NCBI GenBank assembly: GCA_964035545.1
Contig: OZ037768.1
Coordinates: 23,772,819-23,836,818, forward strand
Source of the DNA: Bugula neritina
Lineage: Eukaryota > Bryozoa > Gymnolaemata > Cheilostomatida > Bugulidae
DNA: 64,000 bases
Direction: 5' to 3'
The position numbers and the translations under genes were made by a program. Below, piece by piece: positions 38,052-64,000 of the stretch. A model generated the notes under the pieces. That model had not been told where the DNA came from, did no database searches, and was given only the letters and a program-made list of their open reading frames with translations. The first letter of the stretch is position 1; each line of letters begins with the position of its first letter.

Positions 38052-41000
38052 GACAGAAGAGTACACTGAAATGGTGCTGATACTCTTCACAATGATCTCC
38101 CGGGGCAAAGGAAGTGGTGTTTCTCTGCTTCACATTGATGTCTTCAAAGTACTTGTACGTAGTATAGAAGATGTCCGGGTCACCTGACTCTTTAGCGACA
38201 CTGAGAAACTTCCTCGGCTGCATTTGATTGGCCAGGCCTACCGACCTCAAGTACCTGATAGCTGTGAGCACCTGCAAGTATAGTCATGTGACCAGTCATG
38301 TGACCAGTCATGTGCTCATATAATTCTATGAATAATAAACCTGCATACCATCCATACACACCTGTTATACATACTATAAACACCTGTTATACATACTATA
38401 TACACTTGTTATACACATATAAAATACATATATTACATATATATAAACCTAAAAAACACAGATTAACTCTAGTAAACAGTCTAGACTGTAGATTCTATAC
38501 TAAGCAAGTGGTAACAGCCAGTTAAACTAAATTAGACAGCAAAATAAACAAAATAATCCACAAAAATATTTCAACTATTTTCTTAAAATTTTCCTTGCTG
38601 GAGGTTGATACAGACATTCAATCCCTCAAATAGTTGAGGATTTGTTAATTTCACTGCATCTAGTCATGAAATAAATACAGTGCAAACTCAAAGCTACATT
38701 ACCTAAACCCATGATTCTAGCATGAGATCCTACCATGACATAAGCACAGAGAAAGGGTAGCAGAACGGGAACTAACCTGATGCTTGGAGAGGAAGACCTC
38801 GACAATCTCGTCATGTGCAGTGCCCAGTCGTTTGAGCATATCCAAGGCTATCTGAAAGGCGGGTGGGTAGACATTCTGCAGAGAGAGGAGAAGACAGGCT
38901 AAGTGTTTAGAGTCGGCCATGACGTGGTACTGAAGGAACTGGTGGAGTCTGAACAGCTGGCCACAGTCCACCAGAGTGTTCACCAGCAACTCGTACAGGT
39001 AGAAGTGGACGGGCAGGTCAAACGTCTGCAAGGAGGCGATGTACTCCACCATGACGGATATCGGGAAAGAGGAGTTATTCTTCTCATCTCTCCTAGCACG
39101 CTGCTCGCCAAAGATGGGGTAGAATACATGTGTGTAGATGTCATCCTGTTGTATGACGCTGACGGCGTTGGCAGCGAGCCAGGATTTGGTGAGAGCCAGC
39201 ACCTCAAAGTCGCTCTTCATGTCTTCATTATAAGCATACACCTGGGGAATACAGCAGCAGCTGAGAAATATGACAGCAATTCAATTGAGGGGGTTGAGTG
39301 AAGGAGTGGATAAAGAGGGTAGTGTGAAGGAGTGGATAAGGAGGGTAGTGTGAGGGAGTGGATAAGGGGGGTAGTGTGAAGGAGTGGATAAAGAGGGTAG
39401 AGGGAAGGAGTGGATAAGGAGGGTAGTGTGCGGGAGTAGAAAGGGGGGGTAGTGTGAAGGAGTGGATAAGGGGGGTAGTGTGAGGGAGTGGATAAGGAGG
39501 GTAGTGTGAAGGAGTAGAAAAGGAGGGTAGTGTGAAGGAATACCTGGTTAAGTCTGTTGAATATCTCTCCGATGGTAGTGAGGCTAGACGCAGTTTCAGG
39601 AGTGACTAGACTGCGCACCACGTCTAAGATGAGAGACTTAGCACCAGCCCGATGTAGTAGCACCTCTATCAGCAGACACCTAGTATCAGAACACAGGCAG
39701 ATGATCTTGCAATTTGTATTTCTAAATATACAAAAAATAACTATAGTAAAAATACATTAGCCAGACAGAGCTTAGCAGATAACCTTAATATTTGGTGAAG
39801 CAAATCAAGCAATTCTGTTTCCAAACAAAACGTTTATAGAGAACGTCCACACCGCAATGAAGTCTACATACTTGTCGGATATCATGTCCACAAAGCCCGG
39901 GAGAGAGATCTCCGTCTTCCACATGCACCCCTGCACGGCGTCAATGATAACATCCGGCTGAAAGACTATCCAATTGCTGGAGTACATTTCATAGGCGGGT
40001 TGAGCTGCCGCCATTGCTGCCGGGCTGCTGGAAAAGGACGGGACAAAGGGGGGCATCTGAGTCACTGGTTTCATTGGTAGAGGTGCTATTAGGGGCTGCT
40101 GATGTATCGCTATCTATAATTATGTTATCTCGTTGTAAAGAATAAATAAATACATTTGTTACATCAACATATTGACAACAAATAAATTTATAAAAAGTGC
40201 AGTTGCTTAGTAAAATGAAATGCAAATCTCTTCAAAGCAGTAACATAAATTTATTCACAATGACTTTGTCTAGATAGTTGCAGATGTATAGAGCTCACCT
40301 GTTGGTCACAGACTGAGGAGAACTTGAGGTCATACAGAAGTGTTGTCTTGGACTGCAGATGATGAACCAGTATCAAACTGTCTACTATGTTCACTTGAAA
40401 GTGTCCTGTCGAATTGAACTTTAGAATGTGCGTCTTTGTAACAACTTTTTCTCGAGACAGTCTATACAACACGAGTTCCGCCGGCTGGGAGCTGTGCGTG
40501 TCCTGCTTCAAGGTCATGATGTACACCTGGTTGTAGATAGTCGCGAGAAACGCATCTCGTCGCAGCAATGTAAGCTTGGGCTCAATCGGGTAGAAGATTA
40601 GCTCCACTTCTAGTTTGTTGTACTTGTACAAGGTGCCGTTCTCGTACTGGAACGGATAGATTAGGTTACCATATGTACCGGAAGAGATGATAAGGTGCTT
40701 GCTCTCCTTATGCCATAGGGACCAGTTGACTAAACCAATACTCATGGTCTTTGTACACCTGACTGCCTTCTTCTCCGGTTCAACCTCATAAAACTCGACA
40801 CCAGTGTCTGTGACAAATATTATTTCTGTGTTAGAGGCCCAAAAGAAATCAGTAATGCGAGTTGTCTTTCCCTTACACGTCTGACAATAAGGTAAACTTT
40901 TAGCATCTTTTGGAGAGTTGATGAAGTCCAAGGCGTTGGGTGCTCGTTGTAGAGCTAAAATCTGTTGGTTTGGCGAGAATCTCACAGCCGCTATATCACC

Positions 41001-41225
41001 TTTGTCTTCAACTCGAAATGAAGTTGACTGCCCAGTGCAACCATCAAACATTATGATGCCACCAACTCCATTAGAGCGAACAGCAAATACTTGCTGACTA
41101 GCATCATCGAAAAATACGCTAACATTAGAAGTTACAGGGTCGAAATACACAGGAGAACTAGAGAGTTGTACACAGTATGGTTTCTGGTTTGAGGTGTTGT
41201 TATCATCCAAGTTGACTAAAGCCAT
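38047..41225 (-). CDS. RMC1: Regulator of MON1-CCZ1 complex
   Basis: Five coding exons, minus strand: 40299-41225, 39872-40113, 39544-39679, 38777-39241, 38047-38271; 1995 nt, 664 aa (human RMC1/C18orf8 657 aa). The N-terminal half is a beta-propeller: VSVFFDDASQQVFAVRSNGV, GDIAAVRFSPNQQILALQR, TDFFWASNTEIIFVTDTGVE. It is followed by YSSNWIVFQPDVIIDAVQGC and the C-terminal helical Mic1 domain with LHQFLQYHVMADSKHLACLL, LDMLKRLGTAHDEIVEVFLS and FAPGDHCEEYQHHF at the end. RMC1 binds MON1-CCZ1, the exchange factor for Rab7, in late endosome/lysosome and autophagosome maturation. Start at the ATG MALVNLDD, matching the family length. Intron 3 (302 nt) is almost wholly minisatellite. Divergent from TMEM234. 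Confidence 0.95.
38282..38420 (-). repeat. Short tandem repeats abutting the RMC1 intron 4 acceptor
   Basis: Three units of a 12-bp repeat (CACATGACTGGT on the coding strand) end about 10 nt upstream of the acceptor of exon 38047-38271, preceded by about three units of a 22-bp repeat (ACACCTGTTATACATACTAT core on the plus strand). Confidence 0.8.
39297..39541 (-). repeat. 26-bp minisatellite filling RMC1 intron 3
   Basis: About nine copies of a 26-bp unit (GGAGTGGATAAGGAGGGTAG core, plus strand) inside the 302-nt intron 39242-39543. On the coding strand the array is pyrimidine-rich and begins within the donor itself (GTATTCCTTCACACTACCC), leaving only about 55 nt of other sequence before the acceptor. 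Confidence 0.93.
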
Positions 41226-43090
41226 TGCCACTCTTTGTAGAGTCTGTTGACAGTTGATGAATAAGTATTAAAAGAACAGCATTCTCTACAAAAAAAAGAA
41301 AATCTTTTTAAGCAACTTATATACAGTCTTTAGAATTTAAAATAACATTTTTATGGCAATGGACTAGCATTAATAACATTTATACTACACTGCTATACTG
41401 TATTGTACTTGTAGGGATAAAACTAGTAGACTAAAATTATTTTTTATGGCACTCGCCATGAAATTATCATTAATGTAAATCTAAATGTTGTAAATGTAAA
41501 TCTAAATGTTGGAACTTAGAGTCTAACAAGTAACAAGTAAAACTAACTGTAAGTGTAACTAACTAACTGAGTTACATTTACAATTACTGTTAGTGTTACA
41601 CTTACATTTACTGTTAGTGTTACTGTTACTGTTAGTGTTACACTTAGTCTTACAGTTACTTTAGTGTTACTGTTAGTTTTAGAATAAGAACTAGAACTGG
41701 AAGGCGAACCAGCAAGCAAAAGTTAGCAGCAAACTTCAATGATTCAGATTAAAAAATACTGATACACAAATAATATTTGTAATAATTCTAGTTCTTGTAA
41801 GAACAATATTTACTATAAGTATAAGCAAAGGAAGTTAAAGCAAAGTCAAAGTGAAAGTGTAAGCTTGCTGAATTATATATTTCAGATTTCAGCGAATAAA
41901 TAGGTAGATTTAACCTGCCTCATACAATGACATGTATATACGAAATTGCGTGCGTTTTAGTAACGTTGCAAGACTAAGGTCAAGGTTAATGTTCATTATT
42001 CTGTTTTTCAGACTCGCCTATTAGTATTAGATATTAATGATGAAGCAGTAGTACAACTGCATCAACATGAGACTGAGTCATGATTAGGATTATCATATTA
42101 TGTGATTTAGTAATACTGTTGACTAAGTAAATATATAAATGTATAAATTGTATGTAATTAGTTATCATTCGGAAAAAAAAACATTAAATAATAGTTGTTG
42201 CCAAAGGATAACATTAACAATCACAATGACAATCACAATCACAATGACAATGACTATGACTACCATGACTATCACTATGACTATGAGTATGACATTGAGT
42301 TTGACTATCACTTATCAGTATCACTATGAAATAGAATATGAGATTGAGTGAATAACATTTGCCTTAACTTATAACTATAAGTATAAGTATAACATTAACT
42401 ATAGGTAGATTACTAATAATACTAATTGAGTAATAGTTATAGTAATAAGTATAACTTAAACTATAAGTAGAGAAGAATTAGAAAGCATGTTGATATTGAA
42501 TTTAATATTGATAATCATATTAGCGGTATCCCGATTATCATATTGATAATGAAATTTAGTATCACGCACTCACTCTCAGTTTGACTGTAGTGTAGTCTGT
42601 GTATAAGAATGAGTATCAGTATCACTATGACTATCACAGTTTCAGTATGAGTGTTAACTTTAGGTAACCAATATCAAAATGGTACTGATAATCATCATGA
42701 TAATGCCAATAGGCAATAGGTGCTGGTCATTTCAAGCACAAGTCGTTTCATACCCACTTTTCAGGTCGTTTTGTACACATCTGGATGGAAATTGGATTTT
42801 AATTAATTTGCACAAAATATTTATGTTGATTTATAATTTTTATATTTTTTCTATTCAATACTTGAATTTTACTTTGTATTTTAATATGGCCAGGGAGTTG
42901 CTTGCACTATTATGCAATTTATAGAGGAGAAAATGAAAGTGTCTGAATAATTGCTATGTGTTTATATCTTTTTGATTTCGATGTTTCACAGGGAAGGTGT
43001 ATTAGCAAGTAGCTAAATGGTTTAGTAATTGTATTTGATTTGATTTTATAATATATCTATTTGTTATAGAGCAACTGGTGTCACCAGTGA
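41226..43090. promoter_or_regulatory. Divergent promoter spacer RMC1/TMEM234 with cryptically simple blocks
   Basis: No exon seen. Blocks at about 41,520-41,700 (GTTACTGTTAGTGTTACAC), 42,220-42,350 (ACAATGACTATGACTACCAT), 42,360-42,480 (AACTATAAGTATAAGTATAA) and 42,500-42,700 (GATAATCATATTAGCGG, CAGTATCACTATGACTATCA) repeat the vocabulary of the EMC10/ABCF2 and p23/BOLA1 spacers. Confidence 0.55.
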
Positions 43091-43477
43091 ATGGTTATGC
43101 ATGAAACTGTTGGCTGTTTACTCGTTGCATTTCTTTGGGGAATAACAAATCCTTTGATGAAAAGAGGCGCTGCTGGCGTTGAAACTGTGTCAGATTCTGC
43201 TAACCAATCACAATTGAGAAGAGTATTTTCAGAACTCAAGTACCTTGTCATCAACTGGAAGTACACCCTCCCGTTTCTCGTCAACCAAGGAGGATCACTC
43301 TTGTATTACTGGACGCTGTCATCTAGTGCGCTGTCGGCAGCAGTGCCATTGACCAATGCGCTGACTCTGGTCATCACTGTGCTGTTTGGAAAGATTTTTG
43401 GAGAACAGTCAGGCGGAATATTACTCTATGTTGGCATCACTCTGGTGTTTGTGGGAACTGCAGTAGCCAACTCCTAA
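43091..43477 (+). CDS. TMEM234: Transmembrane protein 234
   Basis: A single uninterrupted open frame of 128 aa. It matches the small EamA/DMT-like TMEM234 family along its length: the first helix ends LWGITNPLMKRGAAGVE (family: ALWGGTQPLLKR), then WKYTLPFLVNQGGSLLYYW and AVPLTNALTLVITVLFGKIF, then a last helix LLYVGITLVFVGTAVANS. Four membrane helices are expected. Function is poorly known (reported in kidney filtration barrier work in vertebrates). The gene lacks introns, unlike its neighbours. Its stop (TAA 43475-43477) lies 11 nt before the TMEM199 start and in a different frame. A possible acceptor (TTTGTTATAG) ends at 43070, 21 nt upstream of the ATG, so an untranslated 5' exon or trans-splice site is possible. 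Confidence 0.9.
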   Translation: MVMHETVGCLLVAFLWGITNPLMKRGAAGVETVSDSANQSQLRRVFSELKYLVINWKYTLPFLVNQGGSLLYYWTLSSSALSAAVPLTNALTLVITVLFGKIFGEQSGGILLYVGITLVFVGTAVANS

Positions 43478-45433: not shown

Positions 45434-45575
45434 ACTTGCTTATCACTTACAATAAAACTGATTACAAACTAACTCACATGGATTTTCAATTTGCTTTTTA
45501 CAATCATAGTGTATAGTTGTATCTTTATGTTTTTTTTATTTGCCTCGCAAAGTCTAACAACAAGACTGGCCCCTC
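45434..45575 (+). repeat. Fragment of the duplicated unit at the TMEM199 3' end
   Basis: Sequence such as ACAATAAAACTGATTACAAA and TTGCTTTTTACAATCATAGT recurs, somewhat diverged, at about 50,346-50,490, 53,515-53,670 and 56,685-56,830, where it forms the upstream flank of the minus-strand PLA2-like fragments. Here it holds the only good poly(A) signal of TMEM199 (AATAAA at 45451-45456, about 110 nt after the stop). Confidence 0.8.
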
Positions 45576-47332: not shown

Positions 47333-47640
47333 TAAACATTTCATTCTCAATAGCTCGTTTAATATTGCCACAATCTCGTTTTGAACAATGCCATTGTTAC
47401 CAGCTTGAACACTGGCCCGTAAGATTTTTGATCGATGGTAGACACCTGTTTTGACACCTTTTTTAAAGTCTGCAACCCTTGCTCTTTCGGGATACAGGTT
47501 TGCCCAGATTGGTCTAACTATATTTCTCCACCTGCTACTATTTTTATCCAGGATTCTGTTACTGCTTAATAAATTGCATTACTGTTGAGTAGGTCACTGT
47601 AGTTATTTGTATTATCATTAGTATGCTCTTGAGGATTTTT
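47333..47640 (-). pseudogene. Partial second copy of a Polinton-type protein (C-terminal part)
   Basis: The minus strand encodes SSRWRNIVRPIWANLYPERA and a tail ending GNNGIVQNEIVAILNELLRM, a pattern I associate with an uncharacterised protein of Maverick/Polinton elements. The DNA at about 47,455-47,645 is duplicated at about 48,418-48,625 with more than 90 percent identity by eye. Broken by stops and frame changes; described as debris only. Confidence 0.55.
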
Positions 47641-47645
47641 GCAAG

Positions 47646-48199
47646 TTAGAAAATATAGCAGTCCTTTCGTTGCGGGTAGTCTTTTTTAGTTACTTCAATT
47701 TTTGTTTTTGCTAATTCTTCCAGTCTCATGAAGGCTGCAGTCTTTTTACTTTCATTTACTCCATATGTGAATTTGGAAACATAGAACATCTCAAACATGA
47801 GGAATCCTAAAGACCACATATCAAACTTGTCTGTAACATCGGGTTCTGGTGCTGAGTTATATGGGGGTGTGCCCGCTCTCTCTAAGCTTTGCCCATCTGT
47901 TACTCTCCCACACAGGCCAAAATCTCCTAAAGCAACTTCTGGTTCATCCGGTACACTTGTATGGCTTCTCGACAGCATGATGTGTCCCGAGGTGTATCTG
48001 TAGAGGTGTATCTGTACGTTACTGCTGTGTACGCTTTTATACTCACACGGAGTACACTTGTATTTCTTCTCACTTCCTTTGTGGTGATGTTTTGAATGTT
48101 TCTTTAGTTCGTCAGGATAGCTGCATCTAAAGTCGCACTTTCCACATTTTATAGTTCTGGGAGCTTCTAGTTCAACTGGGAAAAAACTATTTTCTTCAG
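47646..48199 (-). CDS. Chimeric exon: C2H2 zinc finger + kinase activation half + Polinton tail
   Basis: On the minus strand an acceptor (TTGTTGCAG) at 48200 opens a frame of 183 codons that stays open to a stop at 47646-47648. It starts with zinc-finger sequence (KCGKCDFRCSYPDELKKHSK, then YKCTPCEYKSV). At GTACCGGATGAACC it passes into the kinase seen in the tandem array, entering just before the DFG motif (VALGDFGLCGRV). It continues through APEP and MWSLGFLMFEMF to LEELAKT, then switches to KIEVTKKD, the Polinton-type protein also present at 48,640. The typical linker EKPYKC is present but out of frame near the first junction. It lacks the catalytic HRD loop, so it cannot be a kinase. Whether it is transcribed is unknown; it may be a neutral rearrangement product. 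Confidence 0.6.
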
Positions 48200-48414
48200 C
48201 TGCAACAAGTTATTATGAGGATTCATGTAATAATGAGTATTACTCTACTGAAAAGGCTGAACACAAAGTAATAACCAAGATAAAATGTTTGTTCCAAAAA
48301 TACACATTCACATATCACTTGGAAGATATATTATCATTTTAACAAACTCTAAATAATTAGTCAAGTTGTATTAACTAGATTTTTAACCAATGGTAGAAAT
48401 ATAACGCCTTAACC

Positions 48415-48965
48415 TGTTCTGACACCTTTTTCTTAAAGTTTGCAACCCTTGCTCTTTCTGGATACAGGTTTGCCCAGATTGGTCTAACTATATTTCTCCA
48501 CCTGCTACTATTTTTATCCAGGATTCTTTTACTGCTTAATAAATTGCATTACTGTTGTTGAGTAGGTCACTGTAGTTATTTAAATCATCATTGGTATACT
48601 CTTGAGGGTTTCTGCAAGTTAGAAGATATTGCAGCGGTATTCTTTTTTAGTTACTTCAATTTTATTGTTACCAATTTTAACATTCTTGTCACCAATGATG
48701 TACTTGCTACCATCCCACTTCACCTTCAAACCATGGTAAAGCTTCTAAGAACTCATTTTGTGTATTTGTTATGCTTAATAAAGTGGGTTGTTGGTTCTCA
48801 TCCAACTGTTCTAAGGCACTTGTTGTTTTTGTTTGAGATTCTATTACTGGTGCAAAAAACTCTTGTACTATCGCAGCATTTAGCCTTTGGGCACTCTCGA
48901 CTCTAAAATGTTCAAGTCGATTTTTTCTAGCTATATGGTTTTGAACAATTATATCCTTTTCTTTA
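48415..48965 (-). pseudogene. Polinton-type uncharacterised protein, frameshifted
   Basis: Minus-strand frames spell VQNHIARKNRLEHFRVESAQ, then WDGSKYIIGDKNVKIGNNKI, then NPQEYTNDDLNNYSDL and RWRNIVRPIW, in order but in different frames with stops between. The YTNDDLNNY...RPIW arrangement is one I associate with a conserved unknown protein of Maverick/Polinton elements. No restored reading is given. Part of it is duplicated at 47,333-47,640. Confidence 0.55.
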
Positions 48966-49099
48966 GGATCTTTTATATTTATTTTTGGCGTTTATTATAT
49001 GAACATAAATTGTGTCCAGAGGTGGACACAAATATGTCCAGAGGTAGACACAAATGTGTCTATGCAGAGGTTCTTATACATTTTTTAAAGTATCTAAAC

Positions 49100-49900
49100 T
49101 AGCCCATGAATTTTGTGACTCTGGATACCCCATCCGCTTTACAAATGCCTTTTTACCTTTCTTTTTAATGACACACTCTATTTCTATATATTTTTTGATT
49201 TGCCTTTTGTAATTCCTGGCCGTGAAAAGAACCTTGAATGTCTCCACCTGATGAATCTATAGTTTTGCATGTGGTTGGATTAGTGTACAGTACTTTACTT
49301 ATTGTAAAGACTTATTTCGTCCATTTAGGAGTGTACTCTTTTTCAAATATAGTCTTTTTACATGGTATGCGCACACTATCACCAACGGCAAACTTTTGTT
49401 CATTAGGCTCTGGTAGATTAGGATATAACTTCACACACACTTTACTCACATTGGAGAGGAGGCTAGCTTCTGTGAGTGTCATTCTTATGGACGGGTGTCT
49501 GGTTTCGTTATAAGATTTAGTTGAATCATTCATCACATTTATATATTTATAAGTATTGTTCACTGAAAAACATTTAAACATTTGCTCTTTCATAGTTCTA
49601 TTCCACCTCTCTACTACACTGGACTTTTCTTCATTCTCCGTAGAATATAAGTCTACCAACTGTTCAATATCCTTATAAAATTCCTTACCCTTATCCCAAA
49701 TTAATTGTGCGCTTTAAAAATCTTTTCATGAGCTGTTGCAACAGCTCTACTAGTTTCATTTTTAATGGAACCATCCAGCCGTACTTGGAATTAACACATC
49801 TATTACGGTTACAAATACTTATAGTCATTTTCTTCAGTGAATCCTGTCATGTCAACAAATCAGCAGCCTAAATGTCATCGACATGCACACTTCTTTTTCT
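49100..49900 (-). pseudogene. Maverick/Polinton-type integrase with chromodomain tail, degenerate
   Basis: A retroviral-type (DDE) integrase remnant. The best preserved frame (49312-49659) contains the hallmark YSTENEEKSSVVERWNRT, covering the third catalytic acidic residue, and YNETRHPSIRMTL. Upstream DNA retains a WDKGKEF stretch but is broken by stops. Downstream, past a stop at 49,312, frames resembling a chromodomain (KRMGYPESQNSW) are still legible. Several frameshifts and stops show it is inactive. Function in a live element: integration of the element DNA. Confidence 0.75.
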
Positions 49901-49929
49901 GCAATATTTTTCTTTCCCTGGCTTATGCA

Positions 49930-50346
49930 GTTTGTTGGTTAGTTCATTAGTCTATTTTAGTTTGTTTTAATTTCTCATCCAAGGCGTTTTTAGCTCCTAT
50001 GATTGCTTTGGCGATAATAATGTGTCTTTTTTCAGAGGCTAAAGGATTTCCAACATTATTTAATTCTTCAAGCATTTTAGCATCACAAACCATGTTTCTA
50101 GTTTTTCTATTCCTATATGACGTGCATAACACATGTCATGTCTGTAGGCAATTTCATCATCCCGATCTACGGGTCTACTCCAGTTTCTTGGTGTCAAGTC
50201 CACGTTTAATCGTTTATTTGTGTTTGGCCCTAAAAATTTGTGTCCGAGATAATGCAACTCAATTCTACCTTCCCCCTGCAGGGTTTTTTCTCCTTATCAA
50301 AAGTAAACTTTTTTCCTCCACATTTTCTACATTTGCCATATCCCAT
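49930..50346 (-). pseudogene. Phospholipase A2-like protein of adintovirus/Polinton type, copy 1
   Basis: Minus-strand sequence starts MGYGKCRKCGGKK (a CxxC pair). After a frameshift in a homopolymer stretch near 50,285 it continues HYLGHKFLGPNT, a calcium-loop-like GP element, and PVDRDDEIAYRHDMCY with the HD catalytic pair seen in parvovirus-type PLA2 domains. A C-terminal portion ends AIIGAKNALDEKLKQ. The frame shifts near 50,100 and 50,285, so it is not intact. Such domains occur in Maverick/adintovirus-like elements. Annotated as an old element copy; no repaired sequence is given. Confidence 0.65.
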
Positions 50347-53265
50347 TGTATCACTTACAATAAAACTGATTACAAACCAATCCTCATGGGTTTAGATTTT
50401 GCTTTTTACAATCATAGTGTAAAGTTATATCTTTATATTATTTGTATTTGGTTTACTAAATTTAACAATAAGACTGAAAGTACTGGGTAAATGCTTTATT
50501 TTTTATTGTAAAATTTCACTAATTATGTATTTTCATGAAGAAAACTTTTTGAAATGAGTTTTGCTATTCTCACATTCTTTATTATTTTCTTATGGCTGTT
50601 TGACAAACACAGATACTCTTATCCCTTTAATTGCTAAATGTCACTTAACACGTTCAGTTTCTTAACGAGTCAGCTCTTCTAGTATCTCTTCTGAAGAAAT
50701 ACGCTGTTTAGGGTCTATTTCCAGACACTTTATTACCATATTTTTGATTTTCCGCTGCTTTACGTTGGTTCCAACAAACTGTTTGAAATCTTCAACACGG
50801 CTTGTTTTTGCTAATTCTTCCAGTCTCATGAAGGCTGCAGTCTTTTTACTTTCATTTACTCCATATGTGAATTTGGAAACATAGAACATCTCAAACATGA
50901 GGAATCCTAAAGACCACATATCAAACTTGTCTGTAACATTGGGTTCTGGTGCAGAGTTATATGGGGGTGTGCCCCCTCTCTCTAAGCTTTTCCCATCTGT
51001 TACTCTCCCACACAGGCCAAAATCTCCTAAAGCAACTCCTGGTTCATCCGGATTATTAGGATTCCCGTTTATCAGAATATTTCCAGGTTTCAAGTCACGG
51101 TGGACGTAGCCTTTAGAGTGTATAAATGCGAGAGCTCTGCATATGCCAGTGAGAATAGAGGAAATCTCATTGCGTGATGGAGGGTCGTCTGATCTGTCAT
51201 AGCATCTATCTTCTAGACTCTTATCATATAAACTCATTACTATGTAGAATCTCAAACCTAAACACACACAAATATATTAGAACTGTTAAGAGGAATGATT
51301 CTGTAGTAGGAATGTCAGTATGATAGTGAGGATACTCATTATACAATCAAAGTCTGTTGACTGCTTTTATGAAAAGTTACATCAAAAAGTAAACATAAAC
51401 TATAAATTATCTGTATAAATCTGGCAACTTGGTAACTATAACTTTGGAAATCCTGTTTTTGTAAACATATGTTGATAGTAATTTGTATAGCCAAAAGCTG
51501 TTCTAAATATATGTAACAGCACTGACTGCAACGGCAGCTCCTGTTGTTTTAACTTAGAATTTGTTATCTTATGCATATCTAAACTTTCGACATAATCTAA
51601 TAATACAATCTTTTCTGGCTGACTTAAGCTGATATTATAAAAAATATCACTAAAAACTAGCTGCAGCTATTTATTGGTGATAAGAGACAGGAAATGACAT
51701 ACCCTTGGCAGTTGTCAGGCAGCGCTTCATTTGTGACGTTATTTGTTTATCATCTTCAATGAAATCGATAAGACTTTCTGGGTCCATGTGAGTTTCCCAA
51801 TCAGGATCATCGTAGGGGGGTCTCACCCAACTCTCATAGCATCTCACAATGTTGGGGTGGTGCATCTCCTCTGAAGACTGTAACACTGCCTCTTGGCATG
51901 CCATGAGAAAGTCGAAAACCGCCTCGGTGTCATGCTTTACTGACTGTGTACGTCTGTTAATCACAGCTCTAGTGTCTGCGTAGTCAGTTTTCAAGTTCAA
52001 CTCTATCTCTTTAACTGCCACTACTTGGAGATCTTCCATTCTCATCATTTTAAGCACTTTACCATAAGCTCCTCGTTTTGGTTTTGCATCTGGAATTTCT
52101 ACATAATTCTTATCCAAATGAGATGTTCTAGTTCCTTCATCATCCACCTCATCCGGATGTATGTTGTCCTTTATCAGCTTTTTAACTGCTTCCCTTATAT
52201 CCTCTGAGAAATTCATATTTGTCTATGAATTGGAAACCTGCAGCTCAGAAATACTTGTTTTTGCTAGTCACTCTAACATGTAACTGAGTTGCCTATGCTT
52301 ACAGCGCACTACAAGAGTGTCCCTGTTATTGATTAAAAGTCTAATATTGTATGAAGGGAAATCCCCATAATGAATAACTAAATCCTGAATAGAGTAGTTA
52401 CACAATCGCTCCACACGTTGGCTATGATCATTGAAGGACAACGTGAGAGTCGCATTCCATGCATGAAATAACTAATGTTGAATCAGCATCTTCAAGCATT
52501 TAGCTCAGGCTTTCTAAGTTAGTAAAATATAAATGTTTTGAACATTGGTTGCTCTGCCAATACAACATATGAGTACTAAAATAACATGATGCTGTTATTG
52601 TTGTATTTATACTACGCTAATGTAATGTGCATGACATTGCGGCATGCAGTTATGTAACCTGTTTTGTAAATATTATAATGGTTGTGCTATTTTCCTTTAT
52701 GTCCTAAATCTTTGTGGTTTGTATATATTGTCAGATGTGTTTGCAGTGATCAGTTGTGCTTTCTAAAAAAAGATATTTTATTGAGCTTTAAATATAATAA
52801 TACTATTACAAGCTATTTCGGCATTAATCAGTGGTAGAAATATGGCAGTCAGGGTGTCGGATTTAGTGAAAAATTATGAGGACAGTTCGGTTAGTGGAGA
52901 ATTTACTGAGTGGTGAAAGAAGCTGGAGCTAGTAGCAAAGTTGCAGAAAGTAGAAGATCTTGCCTCGTTCCTGCCATTTATACTTGGCAGGTCCAGCATT
53001 TGCTGCATGTGTATAAATAGTAAATCAGACTTCTCTAAGTTAAAGGCTGAGCTGATGCCGTCATTCTGTGAGAGCAGTTACAGTGCTTGCGATCAACTTA
53101 GAACAAGAAGTCTAAAAGAAGGTGAAGCTGTAGATGTCTATGTAGCTGAGTTGAGAAGGCTAGTAACACTGTTGGGTCAGAAAACTCCAGAGCCTTTACT
53201 GAAATGTGCATTTATTGCTGGTTTGCCAGTGGATGTTGCTATACAAATAAAATCTGTCGCTGCTG
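50095..53265. repeat. Tandem duplication unit A (3.17 kb)
   Basis: Contains part of the PLA2-like gene, a complete two-exon kinase gene (minus), and the truncated gag (plus). The unit begins at TTTCTAGTTTTTCTAT inside the PLA2 sequence; the same 16 bases form the junction where gag sequence meets PLA2 sequence at 53266 and 56429. Near-identical to unit B by eye. Confidence 0.9.
50662..52216 (-). CDS. Protein kinase, eIF2-alpha-kinase-like (array copy A)
   Basis: Two coding exons, minus strand: 51703-52216 and 50662-51257, with GT-AG intron; 1110 nt, 369 aa. N-lobe: RGAYGKVLKM (glycine loop with its first Gly replaced), catalytic lysine in VVAVKEIEL, and HHPNIVRCYESWVRPPYDD, resembling the HPNIVRYYNAW stretch of PERK/HRI/GCN2. 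An acidic insert (MDPESLIDFIEDDKQ) precedes the hinge FYIVMSLY. C-lobe: HSKGYVHRDLKPGNILI, LGDFGLCGRV, SAPEPNVTDKFDMWSLGF, then a C-terminal helix ending SSEEILEELTR. All catalytic residues are present. The intron argues for a host-type gene rather than a processed viral gene. It sits between Polinton and gag fragments. Subfamily assignment to the eIF2-alpha kinases is tentative. Confidence 0.85.
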
Positions 53266-53280
53266 TTTCTAGTTTTTCTA
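52842..53280 (+). pseudogene. Retrotransposon gag fragment, copy A
   Basis: A gag-like frame starting ATGGCAGTCAGGGTG, with an in-frame TGA at 52914-52916. It then reads SKSDFSKLKAELMPSFC and EAVDVYVAELRRLVTLLGQK, typical of the matrix/capsid region of Ty3-like LTR elements. It stops at the duplication junction (about 53,266), running into PLA2-like DNA. The same internal stop is present in copy B, so the damage predates the duplication. Confidence 0.7.
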
Positions 53281-56200
53281 TCCCTATATGACATCATAAC
53301 ACAAGTCATGTCTATAGGAAATTTCATCATCACGATCCACGGGTCTACTCCAGTCTTTTGGTGTCAAGTCCACGTTTAATCGTTTATTTGTATTTGGCCC
53401 TAAAAATTTGTGTCCGAGATAATGCAACTCAATTCTACCTTCCCCCTGCAGGGTTTTTTTTCTCAACAAAAGTACACTTTTTCCTCCACATTTTCTACAC
53501 CTGCCATATCCCATTGAATCACTTGCATATCACTTATAATAAAATTGATTACAAACCAATCCTGATGGGTTTAGATTTTGCTTTTTACAATCACAGTGTA
53601 AAGTTATATCTTTATATTATTTGTATTTGGTTTACTAAATTTAACAATAAGACTGAGAGTACTGAGTAAATGCTTTATTTTTTATTGTAAAATTTCACTA
53701 ATTATGTATTTTCATGAAGAAAACTTTTTAAAATGAGTTTTGCTATTCTCACATTCTTCATTATTTTCCTATGGCTGTTTGACAAACACAGATACTCTTA
53801 TCCCTTTAATTGCCAAATGTCACTTAACACCTTCAGTTTCTTAACGAGTCAGCTCTTCTAGTATCTCTTCTGAAGAAATACGCTGTTTGGGATCCATTTC
53901 CAGACACTTTATTACCATATTTTTGATTTTCCGCTGCTTTACGTTGGTTCCAACAAACTGTTTAAAATCTTCAACACGGCTTGTTTTTGCTAATTCTTCC
54001 AGTCTCATGAAGGCTGCAGTTTTTTTACTTTCATTTACTCCATATGTGAATTTGGAAACAAAGAACATCTCAAACATGAGGAATCCTAAAGACCACATAT
54101 CAAACTTGTCTGTAACATTAGGTTCTGGTGCTGAGTTATATGGGGGTGTGCCCGCTCTCTCTAAGCTTTGCCCATCGGCTACTCTCCCACACAGGCCAAA
54201 ATCCCCTAAAGCAACTTCTGGTTCATCTGGATTATTAGGATTCCCGTTTATCAGAATATTTCCAGGTTTCAAGTCACGGTGGACATAGCCTTTAGAGTGT
54301 ATAAATGCGAGAGCTCTGCATATGCCAGTGAGAATTGAGGAAATCTCAAGACGTGATGGAGGGTCGTCTGATCTGTCATAGCATCTATCTTCTAGACTCT
54401 TATCATACAAACTCATAACTATGTAGAATCTCAAACCTAAACACACACAAATATATTAGAAATGTTAGGAGGAATGATTCTGTAGTAGGAATGTCAGTAT
54501 GATAGTGAGAATACTTGTTATACACTCAAAGTCTGTTAACTGCTATTATGAAAACTTACCTCAAAAAGTAAACATAAACTATAGAATATCTGTATAAATC
54601 TGGCAACTTGGTAACTATAACTTTGGAAATCCTGTTTTTGTAAACATATGTTGATAGTAATTTGTATTAGCCAAAAGCTGTTCTGAATATATAACTGCAA
54701 CGGCAGCTCCTGTTGTTTTAACTTAGAATTTGTTATCTTATGCATATCTAAACTTTCGACATAATCTAATAATACAATCTTTTCCGGCTGACTTAAGCTA
54801 ATATTATAAAAAATATCACTAAAAACTAGCTGCAGCTATTTATTGGTGATAAGAGACAAGAAATGACATACCCTTGGCAGTTGTCAGGCAGCGTTTCATT
54901 TGTGATGTTATTTGTTTATCATCTTCAATGAAATCGATAAGACTTTCTGGGTCCATGTGAGTTTCCCACTCAGGATCATCGTAGGGGGGTCTCACCCAAC
55001 TCTCATAGCATCTCACAATGTTGGGGTGGTGCATCTCCTCTGAAGACTGTAACACTGCCTCTTGGCATGCCATGAGAAAGTCGAAAACCGCCTCGGTGTC
55101 ATGCTTTACTGACTGTGTACGTCTGTTAATCACAGCTCTAGTGTCTGCGTAGTCAGTTTTCAAGTTCAACTCTATCTCTTTAACTGCCACTACTTGGAGA
55201 TCTTCCATTCTCATCATTTTAAGCACTTTACCATAAGCTCCTCGTTTTGGTTCTGCATCTGGAATTTCTACATAATTCTTATCCAAATGAGATGTTCTAG
55301 TTCCTTCATCATCCACCTCATCCGGATGTATGTTGTCCTTCATCAGCTTTTTAACTGCTTCCCTTATATCCTCTGAGAAATTCATATTTGTTTATGAATT
55401 GGAAACCTGCAGCTCAGAAATACTTGTTTTGCTACTCACTCAAACATGTAAGTGCCTATGCTTACTACTCACTACGATAGTGTCTCTGTTATTGATTAAA
55501 AGCCTGATATTGTATGAAGGGAAATCCCCATAATGAATAAGTAAATCCCGAATAGAGTAGTTGCGCAATTGCTCCACACGTTGGCTATGATCATTGAAGC
55601 GCAACGTGAGAGTCGCATTCCATGCATGAAATAACTAATGTTGAATCAGCATCTTCAAGCATTTAGCTCAGGCTTTCTAAGTTAGTAAAATATAAATGTT
55701 TTGAACATTGGTTGCTCTGCCAATACAACATATGAGTACTAAAATAACATGATGCTGTTATTGTTGTATTTATACTACGCTAATGTAATGTGCATGACAT
55801 TGCGGCATGCAGTTATGTAACCTGTTTTGTAAATATTATAATGGTTGTGCTATTTTCCTTTATGTCCTAAATCTTTGTGGTTTGTATATATTGTCAGATG
55901 TGTTTGCAGTGATCAGTTGTGCTTTCTAAAAAAAGATATTTTATTGAGCTTTAAATATAATAATACTATTACAAGCTATTTCGGCATTAATCAGTGGTAG
56001 AAATATGGCAGTCAGGGTGTCGGATTTAGTGAAAAATTATGAGGACAGTTCGGTTAGTGGAGAATTTACTGAGTGGTGAAAGAAGCTGGAGCTAGTAGCA
56101 AAGTTGCAGAAAGTAGAAGATCTTGCCTCGTTCCTGCCATTTATACTTGGCAGGTCCAGCATTTGCTGCATGTGTATAAATAGTAAATCAGACTTCTCTA

Positions 56201-56428
56201 AGTTAAAGGCTGAGCTGATGCCGTCATTCTGTGAGAGCAGTTACAGTGCTTGCGATCAACTTAGAACAAGAAGTCTAAAAGAAGGTGAAGCTGTAGATGT
56301 CTATGTAGCTGAGTTGAGAAGGCTAGTAACACTGTTGGGTCAGAAAACTCCAGAGCCTTTACTGAAATGTGCATTTATTGCTGGTTTGCCAATGGATGTT
56401 GCTACACAAATAAAATCTGTCGCTGCTG
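53266..56428. repeat. Tandem duplication unit B (3.16 kb)
   Basis: Head-to-tail copy of unit A. It begins with a truncated PLA2-like fragment (53284-53514, minus) cut at the junction, followed by the kinase gene (53841-55385) and gag fragment (56004-56440). Few differences from unit A, so the duplication is recent or the copies are homogenised by gene conversion. Confidence 0.9.
53841..55385 (-). CDS. Protein kinase, eIF2-alpha-kinase-like (array copy B)
   Basis: Two coding exons, minus strand: 54872-55385 and 53841-54436; 369 aa, same architecture as copy A with scattered replacements (for example SRLEISS for SRNEISS, and KMDPKQR-type changes near the end). Lysine (VAVKEIEL), HRDLKPGN, GDFG and APEP are all intact, so both copies are potentially active kinases. 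The intron between the lobes differs from copy A by small indels (a short deletion near 54,690), consistent with slightly older divergence in the non-coding part. The gene lies between the truncated PLA2-like fragment and the gag fragment. Confidence 0.85.
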
Positions 56429-56440
56429 TTTCTAGTTTTT
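56005..56440 (+). pseudogene. Retrotransposon gag fragment, copy B
   Basis: Same as copy A, with the shared in-frame TGA and truncation at the next junction; small differences (LPMDVATQ versus LPVDVAIQ). No reverse transcriptase or LTR is visible nearby, so only the gag portion was caught in the duplicated unit. Confidence 0.7.
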
Positions 56441-58310
56441 CTATCCTTATATGACATCATAACACAAGTCATGTCTATAGGAAATTTCATCATCACGATC
56501 TACGGGTCTACTCCAATCTTTTGGTGTCAAGTCCACGTTTAATAGTCTATTAAGATTTGTATTTGGACCTAAAAAGTTGTGTCCGGGATAGTGAAACTCA
56601 ATTCCACCTTCCCCCTGCAGGTTTTTTTCTCCTTAACAAAAGTTCACTTTTTTCCTCCACATTTTCTACATTTGCCATATCCCATTGTATCACTTACAAT
56701 AAAACTGATTACAAACCAACCCTCATGGGTTTAGATTTTGCTTTTTACAGTCATAGTGTAAAGTTATATCTTTATATTATTTGTATTTGCATCTACTAAA
56801 TTTAACAATAAGACTGAAAGTACTGGGTAAATGTTTTACTTTTTATTGTAACATTTCACTAATAGTGTATTTTCATGAAGAAAACTTTTTGAAATAAGTT
56901 TTGCTATTCTCACATTCTTTGTTTTCCTATGGCTGTTTGACAAACACAGATACCCTTATCCCTTTAATTGTTCAACGGGACAGCTCTTCTAGTATCTCAT
57001 CTGAAGAAATACGCTTTTGAGGATTCATTTCTAGACACTTTATTACCGATTTTTTTCATTTTTTTCATTATGTTGGTTCCAACAAACTTTTTAAAATCTT
57101 CAACCCAGTTTGTGCTTTCCAGTTCTTCCAGTCTTATGAAGGCTGCAGTTTTTTTACTTTCGTTTACTCCATATGTAAATTTTGAAACGAAAAACATCTC
57201 AAACATGACAAATCCTAACGACCACATATCAAACTTCTCCGTAATATCGGGTTCTGGTGCGGAGTTATATGGGGGTGTGCCCGCTTTAATGGCTTAACTT
57301 TTCCCATCTGTTACTCTCCCACACAGGCCAAAATCTCCTAAAGCAACTTCTGGTTCATCTGGATTATTAGGATTCCCGTTTATCAGAATATTTCCAGGTT
57401 TCAAGTCACGGTGGACATAGCCTTTAGAGTGTATAAATGCGAGAGCTCTGCATATGCCAGTGAGAATTGATAAAATCTCATGGCGTGATGGCGGTCTTTT
57501 AGACTGTCAAAGTCTGTTGTAATACTATATTATAAAAAAGTAAAATGTCTAAAGTATAAATATGCATGTCACAAATTCTATTTTATAAACTATTATAATA
57601 TATTATATATCATACTCGTTTGTTATTTAGCCTACACTTATAATTAGTATGACACACAAGTCTATTGCAACCTATTATTGAGCAATGTGTGTTTACATAC
57701 TCAGTCACTCTTTGTTGTGCTAATGAATAATGCTTGTTCTACACATTCATGCATGCATAGTGTGGAATGTGATAGTATTTTCTAGACTTGTCAATTTAAT
57801 ATAAAAGCAGATGCTTTACTTGTAAATCCAGGTTCAACAATAAAGTTCTTATAAACCACATAGCTCAACAAAGGTACCTTTATATTACAACAGGACATCT
57901 TATCTCTAGTTCTGATATAGAAAGACATCTTGATATTAACTAGCCAGCTATTTATGGGTAATAAAAGACATGAAATGACATGCCCTTGGCAGTAGTCAGG
58001 CAGGGGTTCATTTGTGATGTAATTTCTTTATTATATTCGATATTGTATGAAGGGGAATTCCCATAATGAGTGAGAAAATCCCAAATAGAGTAATTGCACA
58101 ATCGCTCCACTCATTCATTGGCTATGATCATTGAAGCGCAACGTGATAGTCGCATTCCATGCATGAAATAATAAATGTAAGCACTAGTCGAATCAGTGTC
58201 TCTATGCATTTAGCTCAGGCTCTCTAAGTTTGTAAAATATAAATCTTGTTTTGGTTGCTCTGCCAATACAACATATGAGTACTAAAATAATATGATGCTT
58301 CTGATATTAT
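56429..58310. repeat. Older, deleted duplication unit C
   Basis: More diverged copy: a PLA2-like fragment with frame breaks (56,440-56,690, minus), a decayed kinase C-lobe, then a jump at about 58,040 that deletes nearly the whole N-lobe exon. Homology to units A and B resumes (GCATTCCATGCATGAAATAA) and ends near 58,310, before the position where gag begins in the other units. Confidence 0.8.
56980..57510 (-). pseudogene. Kinase pseudogene (array copy C)
   Basis: The minus strand keeps HRDLKPGN-region and DFG-region sequence around 57,300-57,430 and MWSLGFVMFEMFFVSKFTYG at 57,170-57,227. An insertion near 57,290 (AGTTAAGCCATTAAAG) breaks the frame and introduces stops, and the C-terminal helix is degraded. 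The N-lobe exon is missing. Not functional. Confidence 0.85.
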
Positions 58311-58458: not shown

Positions 58459-61400
58459 ATGCTAGTTAAAACTAAGTTTGCTGTGAGTACTAAGAAAGTT
58501 AAGCAGTGTTCACAGGAAGTTCTTGTTAAAGTCTCAAATTTACAGAACAGATACGCAGGCTGGCCGTTTTATGCAGAGCTGAAAGAGCTTATTGTTGATA
58601 AGAAATGTGAAGACTTAGAGTTATCTTCTCGGTTCACGAAATTGTGTAAAAGTCTTCACCAATATGTCCTTGAGTGCAGAAGAAACAGTTTAAGTGAAGA
58701 AGAGAATGACGATGGTATTACAGCATCTTCTACTGAGTCAATGGTGATTGATTTTGTTATATAATATATTGTTTTATCTGTTTTATAACTTTATTTCATG
58801 ATGAATGATAATCTTACTATATATAGCATATTATAGCATATTATAATTTAGCATAGGAGAATATGATGTTATATAGGTGACAACTTTTAATTTAGTGTAA
58901 CAAAGATTCTGATAGGATATCCAAGATCGTTGCTACCATGATGCAGCGGTTTAGTAATCGAGCTAGTAAACAGGAAGTTGGTAAACTGGAATTTGGTAAA
59001 CTGGAAGTTAGTAAACAGGAAGTTGGTAAACAGGAAGTTGGTAAACAGGAAGTTGGTAAACAGGAAGTTGATAAACAGGAAGTTAATAAACAGGAAGTTG
59101 GTGAGCAGGAAGTTAATAAACAGAAAGGCGATTCAGACTGCAAGGTTAGCAGTTTTACAACATTCTAGGTGTAAATGCTTAAAGGATTGCTCTATCTTAG
59201 TTTATTACAATCACATTATAATTATGAACTATAATCTAATGTGTATGCAAACAATTGTGACTTTGCAAAGGGATAGATGCCTAGAAAACAGCTTTTCAAA
59301 ATTCCAATTTTGAGGGAGGTAAAATTTTCAGCCATGAAAAAGAATAGCCTAATACGTGACGTGTGAACGCCAGTAACTATGCTGCACGTGCTAACTATAA
59401 CGCTAGTATTCAAGGTTGCTGAGCGCAACATCAACCAATAACGCTCAAGCAGTTACAGTGCGCTATATAGGTCAGCTTTGGTGCGCCAGTAATATTGCAC
59501 AATCTGACCTAGTTTAGATCGATCGCAGGCATTCATCCTAAAGAATGCATGTTTTTGCAATGCTTTTTTCTATGCTTACAAGCAAAATATGGCCTAATGT
59601 TATCACATACATGTTATTTAACATGTCAAAAAACTATAGATTGAGATAATTCACATTTGCACTTCTATAAATATACAAATTACGAGCTGAAAGATCACAT
59701 CTCACAGTCATATTTCTATAGTTATTCATTTGTATAGTCACGTGACCAGCAGGAATGCTGGCGCTGTTACGTCACAGTTCCCAGCTCATTTCAAAATCAG
59801 CGTTTTGGCTGTTACCAATCTACACCCTCAACTTCAACTAACTTTTTCTACCTTTGGTCAAATGCTTTTTGTCAATGCATGCTTAGAAAAACACAATATT
59901 ATGTGTGTTTGACCTAAATGGCCATTTATTAGACAAGATAGAGCAATCCTTTAAACTTTTAAAATGCTGAAATATAAGTTATGAAAAAAATTGTATTCCC
60001 ATTTGAGCTAAACTGTAAATCTGTTACTGTCGGCCTATTTATTGCTGTCATTTCCTTTCTAAAATATATTATATAAGTTCAGTATTATTGAAAAATTTGT
60101 AAAGTTTTGCTTCTTGCTGTTCAGATTTTAACCCCCTAGTAGGAAACACAACTCCAATATTCTGTAATATACATATACTACGTAGTCAGCTTCAATCTAA
60201 AGAATTACTTTACTATAGGAATATAATATGATTGCAGTGTAAAGTATATATATGATCAGTATAACTTATTAAATATTGTGGCAGTTCACAGTTCTATCTA
60301 TATACTCCTCCCCCTTTGAGGTCAGAAGGCGGGGTCAACGGTTACATTTTATGCAAAAATAGCAAATGTTAGCAGTTAAAACAGTTTATAAGCAAAAAAG
60401 TGCTTTACAAATGTTTGCCATTATAATATTTACTAAAGTTAGATTTACTGTAATTTTAAAGACTGTCACTAGATTGATGAGGAGTTGTTGACCCGCCTAC
60501 TGAACTTTGACCTCACAAAAAAAGTGCCAACTGTCTCTTCTCAAAATCTGCAGAAAGATGATGTCACACTGATGTCTGTCAGCCAAACTCAAAGCTCTTA
60601 TAATCAGATGTGAGTAGCAATTTCTGTGATACTTAACTTGCATGGCTTCCTGTTCACAGTGTTTATCTTCATGTAGTTTTCAAAATAACAGGCTTGATTT
60701 AACAATTATAACCTCAGTTAATAAAATAGGAATATTTTAAAATTATATATCAACTATAAGATAACATTGCTATGAATACCATTCTATTATAAGAATAGTC
60801 TTAATACATACTTTGTATAGAAAAGTAGGTTTTCTTTTAGGTCATCAAATGAAAACTTTACCAAAAAAGTGATGTTTTATGCACTTGAAATAATATATAG
60901 ATTGTACAATTCAATACAAAAGTATGAATTCACAGTAGATGTATATTAGTGTAGGCACATGGCTAAATGTTTAGTTAATGGCATATGAATGCTTATAAAC
61001 CAGAGAGTGGTTAAAGTACTGGCATAGAGTTATGGAGCAGAGGCTTTGATGATGTCATAAGTATCATCCAATCAGAGATGCTCCTGTACCACTGAGCACG
61101 TGCAACCCCCTTGACAACCCTTACTACCAGATGTGAATGGCAACTTTGAACAACCAGGAGTAATAACTCTAATATACCGCAACAGGATTGCTTCTAGATC
61201 TTTTAATTTTATTTACAGCAGGGCAGCTGACCAATGTACCTCTGAAAATGGCAGTGACATGCACGTAGCCACTCTCACACCTCTACCTAGTGTTGCAATA
61301 GAAAACATCACTCATGACATCACAGTACGCCAAAGTAACATGAGATACTCCAACCGGTCTCGAATGTCACAGATATCACACCTGCCCGGCGTGTCACATT

Positions 61401-62769: not shown

Positions 62770-64000
62770 ATACATAGGATTGCTTGTATCATGCCACACA
62801 TATCTATCGGCTCTTTTATAACAATATAAACATATGTTTATTGCCATAAGATTTATAACATTGTATTATGATACAGGAATTATATTGAAATCAAGGAAAA
62901 ATATCAACAATAAAAAAGAAATAAAAAATCATAAATCTACTGCCCAATCATTGAACATAAAAATTACATATAAAATCACATAGAATGGAGTGAGAACATA
63001 CAAAGTAGATAGAAATAGTATATTCAGCACAGTCATTTCTATATTAAAAACACAGCAGCTACACTGAGATACTGTAAAATATCAGCTAGTGATACTTTGT
63101 AAAAGATGATATAGTGGAAGCATTTGAATTATGACTAATTTCTGCATATTTTAACACCAAAAGACTGGTTCATACACTACAACCATATATTGCAGCTGTG
63201 GCACACTGCATAGTATGTTGTATTATTGATCATAAGGCAGTAGGGTGGAGTATTTTAAAAGGATAAAGAAAAAAAATGATTGTATTATTGTGATTAGGTT
63301 TAACTGTAAAATGAAACAAGGACTTGCATAATAACTGGAGAAGTGAACCCGAGTTGTGTCCGCCAATATATTTGAAACATAACATGATTTGACTTATTTC
63401 AACTGACTTGATCTAATTGGCTCAAAGATAGTGTTACTCAATAGGTTTTCGACTGGACTGAAAAGTTTTCTAGTTTCAAAACAGAAAAGTGATTAATTTC
63501 AAAGTATAAAAACAAAATTACTCATGAGCAAAGAACATAATTATAAGTAGTAATGTGACTGCATGCTTTTACCTGAAGCATGCTTTTACCTGAAGCATGC
63601 TTTTACCTGAAGCATGCTTTTACCTGAAGCATGCTTTTACCTGAAGCATGCTTTTACCTGAAGCATGCTTGTTGAGAAACGACAGGGTATGACATAATAG
63701 TCAATGCTCTAATAATGCTATTCCACAAACATAACCCGTGTTAAATTCCTACACAAAATAGACCTACAAACCGCAGACCACCCAAAATAGAAATTTTAAA
63801 TTAATTAAACATTAAAGGCCTAAACTTAGAATTTGAAGAAGAAACAATTACAATTTCAGCAGAAAAGATAAAATACTCATTATATAATTAATAATAGAGT
63901 TGTCTTCTCGGAGAATATTCTAAATCAATGACATCTGCTGACAAGAGCATGTTATAGAAAGGTGACAAAGATTAGAGTTCATCACCAGGTCGCTGACTGT
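62770..64000. other. 3' flank of the unrecognised gene; no further gene
   Basis: AATAAA occurs near 62,911, about 140 nt after the stop. The rest is AT-rich without supported exons, except for the 17-bp array at 63561-63670. Confidence 0.5.
63561..63670. repeat. 17-bp tandem repeat (GCATGCTTTTACCTGAA)
   Basis: Six full units and a partial one, nearly identical to each other. The GCATGC palindrome recurs every 17 bp. On the minus strand each unit reads TTCAGGTAAAAGCATGC, which carries an acceptor-like TTCAG directly followed by a donor-like GTAAAA. Confidence 0.95.

Follow-up and report, generated by a model that had tools for sequence, protein, structure and literature searches.

A little-known host kinase gene duplicated in tandem, with transposon fragments as probable passengers, in the bryozoan Bugula neritina

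Kinase genes that alternate with fragments of mobile elements raise the question of whether the kinase is carried by an element or belongs to the host and, if it belongs to the host, what kind of kinase has been multiplied. Such an arrangement is present on chromosome 4 of Bugula neritina, in the stretch 23772819-23836818 (64,000 nucleotides, hereafter the window; coordinates below are window positions unless a chromosome is named). An earlier note on its sequence had described tandem kinase genes interleaved with Polinton and gag debris and had likened them to the eIF2-alpha kinases. According to our analysis, the array very probably represents a divergent, apparently bryozoan family of host kinases that was duplicated locally in tandem with transposon passengers.

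Comparison of the window with itself matched 50093-54362 to 53264-57494 (93.7% over 4295 columns), which sets the limits of two head-to-tail units, A at 50093-53263 (3171 bp) and B at 53264-56426 (3163 bp), and agrees with the 3.17-kb units previously described. In register, the longest repeat blocks (300 nt) are 95-98% identical, an agreement that appears to be far beyond chance. The units carry a kinase gene together with a relic of a Polinton PLA2-integrase gene and a piece of a long terminal repeat (LTR) retrotransposon, and the debris is interleaved with the kinases as reported:

50093-50420, minus strand: unit A, Polinton PLA2-integrase relic, 5' part of the gene (upper limit approximate)
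50665-52216, minus strand: unit A, kinase copy A, intact, 369 aa (exon 1 52216-51703, intron of 445 bp, exon 2 51257-50665)
52620-52812, plus strand: unit A, LTR belonging to a dispersed LTR retrotransposon (limits set by repeat matches)
52813-53263, plus strand: unit A, gag piece (open reading frame 52917-53291)
53284-53529, minus strand: unit B, Polinton PLA2-integrase relic (PLA2-like open reading frame, 81 aa)
53844-55385, minus strand: unit B, kinase copy B, intact, 369 aa (exon 1 55385-54872, intron of 435 bp, exon 2 54436-53844)
55783-55975, plus strand: unit B, LTR (position derived from that in unit A with an offset of 3163 bp)
56080-56454, plus strand: unit B, gag open reading frame
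56427 to about 58316, minus strand: decayed kinase copy C, exon 1 mostly gone, exon 2 interrupted by stops, LTR-gag piece absent
47702-47951, minus strand: fourth kinase piece, 250 bp of exon 2, 98% identical to A and 97% to B, within a chimeric open reading frame (47646-48209)

Copies A and B each consist of two exons (369 codons) with a phase-1 intron bounded by GT..AG; both are open, and their products are 97% identical, with 10 residues different. The two near-identical intact kinases and the decayed third copy of the earlier description were thus recovered; in copy C about 55 bp of exon 1 is still alignable, and exon 2 contains at least three stops. The piece at 47702-47951 has 5 differences to A and 8 to B.

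Both A and B are eukaryotic protein kinases: their exon-2 frames match the Pfam Pkinase profile (E=8.1e-30 and 5.4e-30; 104.5 and 105.1 bits, cut-off 31.7), and the VAIK lysine (as VAVK), the alpha-C glutamate, the HRD aspartate (HRDLKPGN) and the DFG aspartate are present in each. In the P-loop, lysine replaces the first glycine (KRGAYGKV). Catalytic activity and expression of the two copies are predicted. The Pfam scan revealed no domain above its cut-off besides the kinase, and in particular no N-terminal domain for binding double-stranded RNA or Z-DNA such as that of PKR or PKZ. An in-frame stop stands directly before the start methionine, so the coding sequence cannot continue directly upstream of the kinase. 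Our tentative assignment is to the cytosolic Ser/Thr kinases, without a sensor domain of its own.

The intron was the point on which a host origin had been proposed, and the search for a parental kinase has now provided paralogs on chromosomes 2 and 3. In a genome search with exon 2 (150 of the 168 candidates were scored, hence counts are lower bounds), close matches were confined to four places in the array, followed by the chromosome 2 paralog (39%, 94 bits), the chromosome 3 paralog (28%, 55 bits) and, from 46 bits down, generic kinases mostly with ciliate-type stops. In the reverse search with the chromosome 2 exon 2, the array copies headed the list (95.7 and 93.6 bits), with at most 47.3 bits elsewhere. 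Exon 1 retrieved a further relic on chromosome 4 at 12.208 Mb (67-72%). The intron lies at the identical residue and in the same phase (codon split as G/..) in A, B and both paralogs; four relatives from other samples (P0001, P0002, P0072 and P0073) break at this point, and in protein P0069 of Watersipora the exons are joined at this residue. The common phase-1 intron and the breaks in the other samples confirm that the kinase is a host gene. The family gene has a single phase-1 intron just upstream of strand beta5, in a different place from the beta5 intron of the GCN2 gene of B. neritina.

Ciliate contamination was considered and ruled out, the array and the paralogs lying on chromosome-sized scaffolds with exons free of stops. 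Small contigs of the assembly (e.g., C188, C173 and C64) do contain kinases that read through TAA and TAG and represent ciliate-type DNA.

The family itself is small. A final family profile run against 5.8 billion proteins gave ten members (99-285 bits), followed by a gap down to 84 bits; the search was word-based, and distant members may therefore escape it. An earlier library search provided the best 120 of 336 matches, so that its counts are lower bounds. The members form a monophyletic group in the tree (99/96). Nine of the ten carry no species name; the tenth, P0069 of the bryozoan Watersipora subatra, resembles copy B (46% identity over 45% of B) and is a 161-aa partial model whose label, "mitogen-activated protein kinase 1-like," was not borne out. 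Among relatives from other samples, P0070 possesses the A-derived Gly266, which hints that A and B may predate the split of those samples. P0071 (jgi contig, 3814 bp) shows an in-frame loss of 26 residues of exon 1, including the alpha-C glutamate, suggesting variation between copies or alleles. The chromosome 3 member (L030:3206-4950, at 30.307 Mb), to which P0074 is related, has no normal glycine loop and HND in place of HRD, and may be a pseudokinase. No report of this kinase family was found in the titles and abstract openings of the literature matches listed.

The divergence between units A and B is patchy: 0/193 in the LTR and 2/451 in gag. Exons 1 and 2 differ by 1.0% and 3.7%, the intron by 3.9%, the spacer by 4.8%, the 3' flank by 3.4% and the PLA2 relic by 6.4%. 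Copy C differs by 5-15% in its alignable parts and has no LTR-gag piece; the 47% difference of its intron comes from an alignment that is not trustworthy. The patchiness suggests unequal crossing-over and gene conversion after the LTR insertion. In the reading that we favour, a host kinase gene of a small, divergent, bryozoan-looking family was duplicated in tandem on chromosome 4. The segment involved had a fragment of a dead Polinton integrase at one end and one of a dead LTR-gag at the other, so that these transposon scraps were multiplied with the kinase as passengers. Three units would then have arisen by unequal crossing-over and gene conversion; two of them retain an intact kinase under purifying selection, and the third has decayed.

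Neutral evolution of the copies, which had been feared, is contradicted by the measured dN/dS of 0.17 between A and B (nonsynonymous divergence dN 0.0126, 11 changes; synonymous divergence dS 0.0737, 16 changes; Fisher p = 1e-5). When exon 2 was polarized by copy C, which left 3 of 22 sites unresolved, 5 of 11 changes on the A branch (p = 0.016) and 3 of 8 on the B branch (p = 0.014) were nonsynonymous, against 79% expected without constraint. The pattern of substitution indicates that both A and B are under purifying selection. The possibility that both are recent pseudogenes, still unbroken, would agree with the presence of one decayed unit and another reduced to 250 bp, as well as with the 26 residues missing from P0071, a near relative; given the deficit of nonsynonymous changes on both branches, we regard it as unlikely.

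Several points weigh against a selected, bryozoan host kinase family. Exon 1 alone gives a weak selection signal (3 nonsynonymous and 2 synonymous changes), and dS is unequal between the exons (0.02 and 0.12). Gene conversion may bias dN/dS, as the patchy divergence of A and B implies (0-0.4% in LTR and gag, 1-6% elsewhere). Exon 1 of the chromosome 2 paralog retrieves the array at E=0.007-0.009 with 26% identity. Bryozoa as the limit of the family is inferred, since a species name is attached to one of the ten family proteins, and A and B are presumed to be expressed.

What kind of kinase the host has multiplied is the second part of the question. According to one proposal, which we consider very unlikely, the eIF2-alpha kinases (PKR, PERK, HRI and GCN2) have a divergent sister branch in this family, and what has expanded in the array is a kinase that stops translation and possibly acts against viruses. 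The family shares with these kinases an insert between beta4 and beta5, which fits in place and length (34-52 aa in 3/3 family members), and a similar beta4 strand (HPNIVRCYESW). In a structural comparison restricted to a model of the C-lobe (pLDDT, the predicted confidence of the model, 65.6), PKR and PERK rank first, in a tie with IRAK4 by Z score. In Foldseek, with the same model, IRAK4 leads and the best 50 rows contain no eIF2-alpha kinase, an absence that is not evidence in its own right. In acidity the insert falls short of its counterpart: D+E+S+T make up 27-37% in the family (D+E 10/43, 7/52 and 7/34) versus 39-58% in the eIF2-alpha kinases, where PMC2291453 describes it as "highly acidic". 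The beta5 motif IQM, our own criterion taken from the four human sequences, occurs in 4/4 eIF2-alpha kinases and 0/4 family members. Unlike the eIF2-alpha kinases, the array family has an additional insert between beta3 and alpha-C, and its members in the array have no sensor domain that the Pfam scan could find. The residues of PKR that dock eIF2-alpha lie in the T487 region and alpha-G, where the alignment of the family is uncertain.

Profile and tree comparisons point away from this group. A profile of the four eIF2-alpha kinases gave copy B 73.1 bits, below 19 of 22 kinases from outside the group; in leave-one-out controls the missing eIF2-alpha kinase came first in 4/4 cases (207-285 bits; next best 143-161). 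The family profile against 26 references ranked PAK1 on top (90.9), with PKR at 85.3, PERK at 85.1 and CDK2 at 82.1. In both trees built with PERK, PKR, HRI and GCN2, as the earlier note had advised, the eIF2-alpha kinases and WEE1/PKMYT1 form a group that excludes the family (97/97 and 96/92). Attachment of the family to any one eIF2-alpha kinase gave uncorrected p-AU values (approximately unbiased test) of 0.033-0.048. Attachment to IRE1 (0.337), WNK1 (0.269) or PAK1/MST4/MAP2K6 (0.259), by contrast, was not rejected; neither was its placement as sister to the eIF2-alpha kinases (0.356 and 0.078). The genome of B. neritina also has separate GCN2 and HRI-like genes. In a genome search with HRI, ciliate kinases ranked above the host's own exons, and this rank was consequently not used. 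Of the claimed resemblance, the beta4-beta5 insert and a weak structural ranking stand, whereas the eIF2-alpha kinase profile, both trees and the missing beta5 IQM oppose it, and the eIF2-alpha kinase reading of the array kinase is weak.

The generic Ser/Thr kinases (PAK1, MST4, MAP2K6, MK2 and ULK1) have the same catalytic motifs as the family; PAK1 gives the highest family-profile score of the 26 references, and with copy B alone the top scores go to MAP2K6, MK2 and PAK1. They have no beta4-beta5 insert, unlike the array family, which forms its own clade. Naming the kinase group from sequence matches in PDB was rejected; the leaders were MK2 with exon 2, MAP2K6 and MK2 with full-length copy B (PKR from 44 bits, GCN2 43 bits), and PAK1 with the family profile (GCN2 91.3 bits, PKR 82 bits). 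A PKR plus HRI query, which reached 170-201 bits with GCN2/PERK chains, was not used as a yardstick because its scores are the sum of two kinase domains. A more speculative version, to which we grant a slender chance, has a separate, fast-evolving bryozoan kinase family arriving by kinship or convergence at the eIF2-alpha kinase layout, with an insert ahead of beta5 and without its own sensor; its locally copied member could be an invertebrate counterpart of PKR/PKZ downstream of a separate sensor. Any antiviral function is conjectural.

The transposon fragments have a history of their own. The PLA2-like gene in which the units were said to begin is the front part of a Polinton-type integrase gene; the PLA2-like domain (PF08398) itself is weak in the array relic (E=0.023, under the cut-off), and a relative whose frame is complete shows it clearly (1.4e-8). 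The gag with which the units were said to end is indeed there, as a piece of a dispersed LTR element (PF03732, E=0.005, under the cut-off). Two further relics lie to the left of the units:

49074-50135, minus strand: left flank, remainder of the Polinton integrase relic, recognized from dispersed copies with similar DNA (in Pfam a weak chromodomain alone, E=0.0023)
45441-45568, minus strand: extra relic of the kinase 3' flank and PLA2 start (84%)

Across the genome there are at least 42 matches to the PLA2-integrase, 5 in the array and 37 elsewhere; 20 of these 37 keep a 454-aa open frame, so this Polinton-type family looks recently active. At one of them (L061, 1429-2793; chromosome 3, region of 6946382) a single 454-aa frame comprises a DUF5679 zinc ribbon, the PLA2-like domain, an rve integrase and a chromodomain just below the Pfam cut-off, and it adjoins a divergent A32-like packaging ATPase identified by Pfam; a second locus (L059) has the same gene order with the frame shortened to 379 aa. 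Such a fusion of zinc ribbon, PLA2, integrase and chromodomain was found neither among the literature matches listed nor in the portions of PMC4061559 and PMC3671162 consulted. The gag with its 190-bp LTR (52620-53263) has 14 long dispersed copies (13 at 86-89%, one at 77%), and in 10 of the 14 a second LTR match lies 3.6-4.1 kb away. No dispersed Polinton or LTR-gag copy was found at the exon-2 kinase matches outside the array.

That the kinase is the cargo of a Polinton or other mobile element would suit the units, in each of which it adjoins a Polinton integrase relic of like orientation, and is extremely unlikely: the PLA2-integrase is what the array shares with Polinton/Maverick elements, of which the kinase is not a component; at L061 and L059 (3.2 kb read each) the divergent ATPase-like gene is the neighbour and starts where the array has the end of the kinase; both PLA2-integrase and LTR-gag are dispersed without the kinase; the common intron recurs in the chromosome 2 and chromosome 3 paralogs; and the proposal that the element carries the kinase fails at all of the 37 other loci found, with a family kinase near none of them (0/37 within 3.6 Mb; 13 share a chromosome with one, the nearest at 3.69 Mb).

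Some further features of the window deserve mention. The open reading frame at 47646-48209 is an in-frame chimera of C2H2 zinc-finger sequence and the exon-2 piece; its C2H2 part matches a tandem array on chromosome 3 (1.409-1.433 Mb, long matches 80-86%), and on either side of it stands the same 250-bp stretch (47444-47702 and 48412-48663, 88% alike); it looks like a patchwork repair insertion. Host genes at about 10 kb or less from the array are RMC1 (38717-41267, minus strand; RMC1_N and RMC1_C) and TMEM234 (43091-43477). A 15-bp tandem repeat with 10.8 copies, whose open frame would read as GKQEV-type peptide repeats, occupies 58966-59127, and a perfect 17-bp repeat with 6.5 copies is situated at 63561-63670.

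In conclusion, the reading that suits the locus best is an ordinary tandem duplication in which a little-known host kinase was accompanied by transposon passengers. The locus illustrates that transposon scraps can be copied together with a gene duplicated in tandem and be wrongly taken for its carrier. The kinase family to which the locus points is itself the interesting part, and, with a host gene under selection established, a loose antiviral idea becomes a simple biochemical question, namely, whether this kinase phosphorylates eIF2-alpha.

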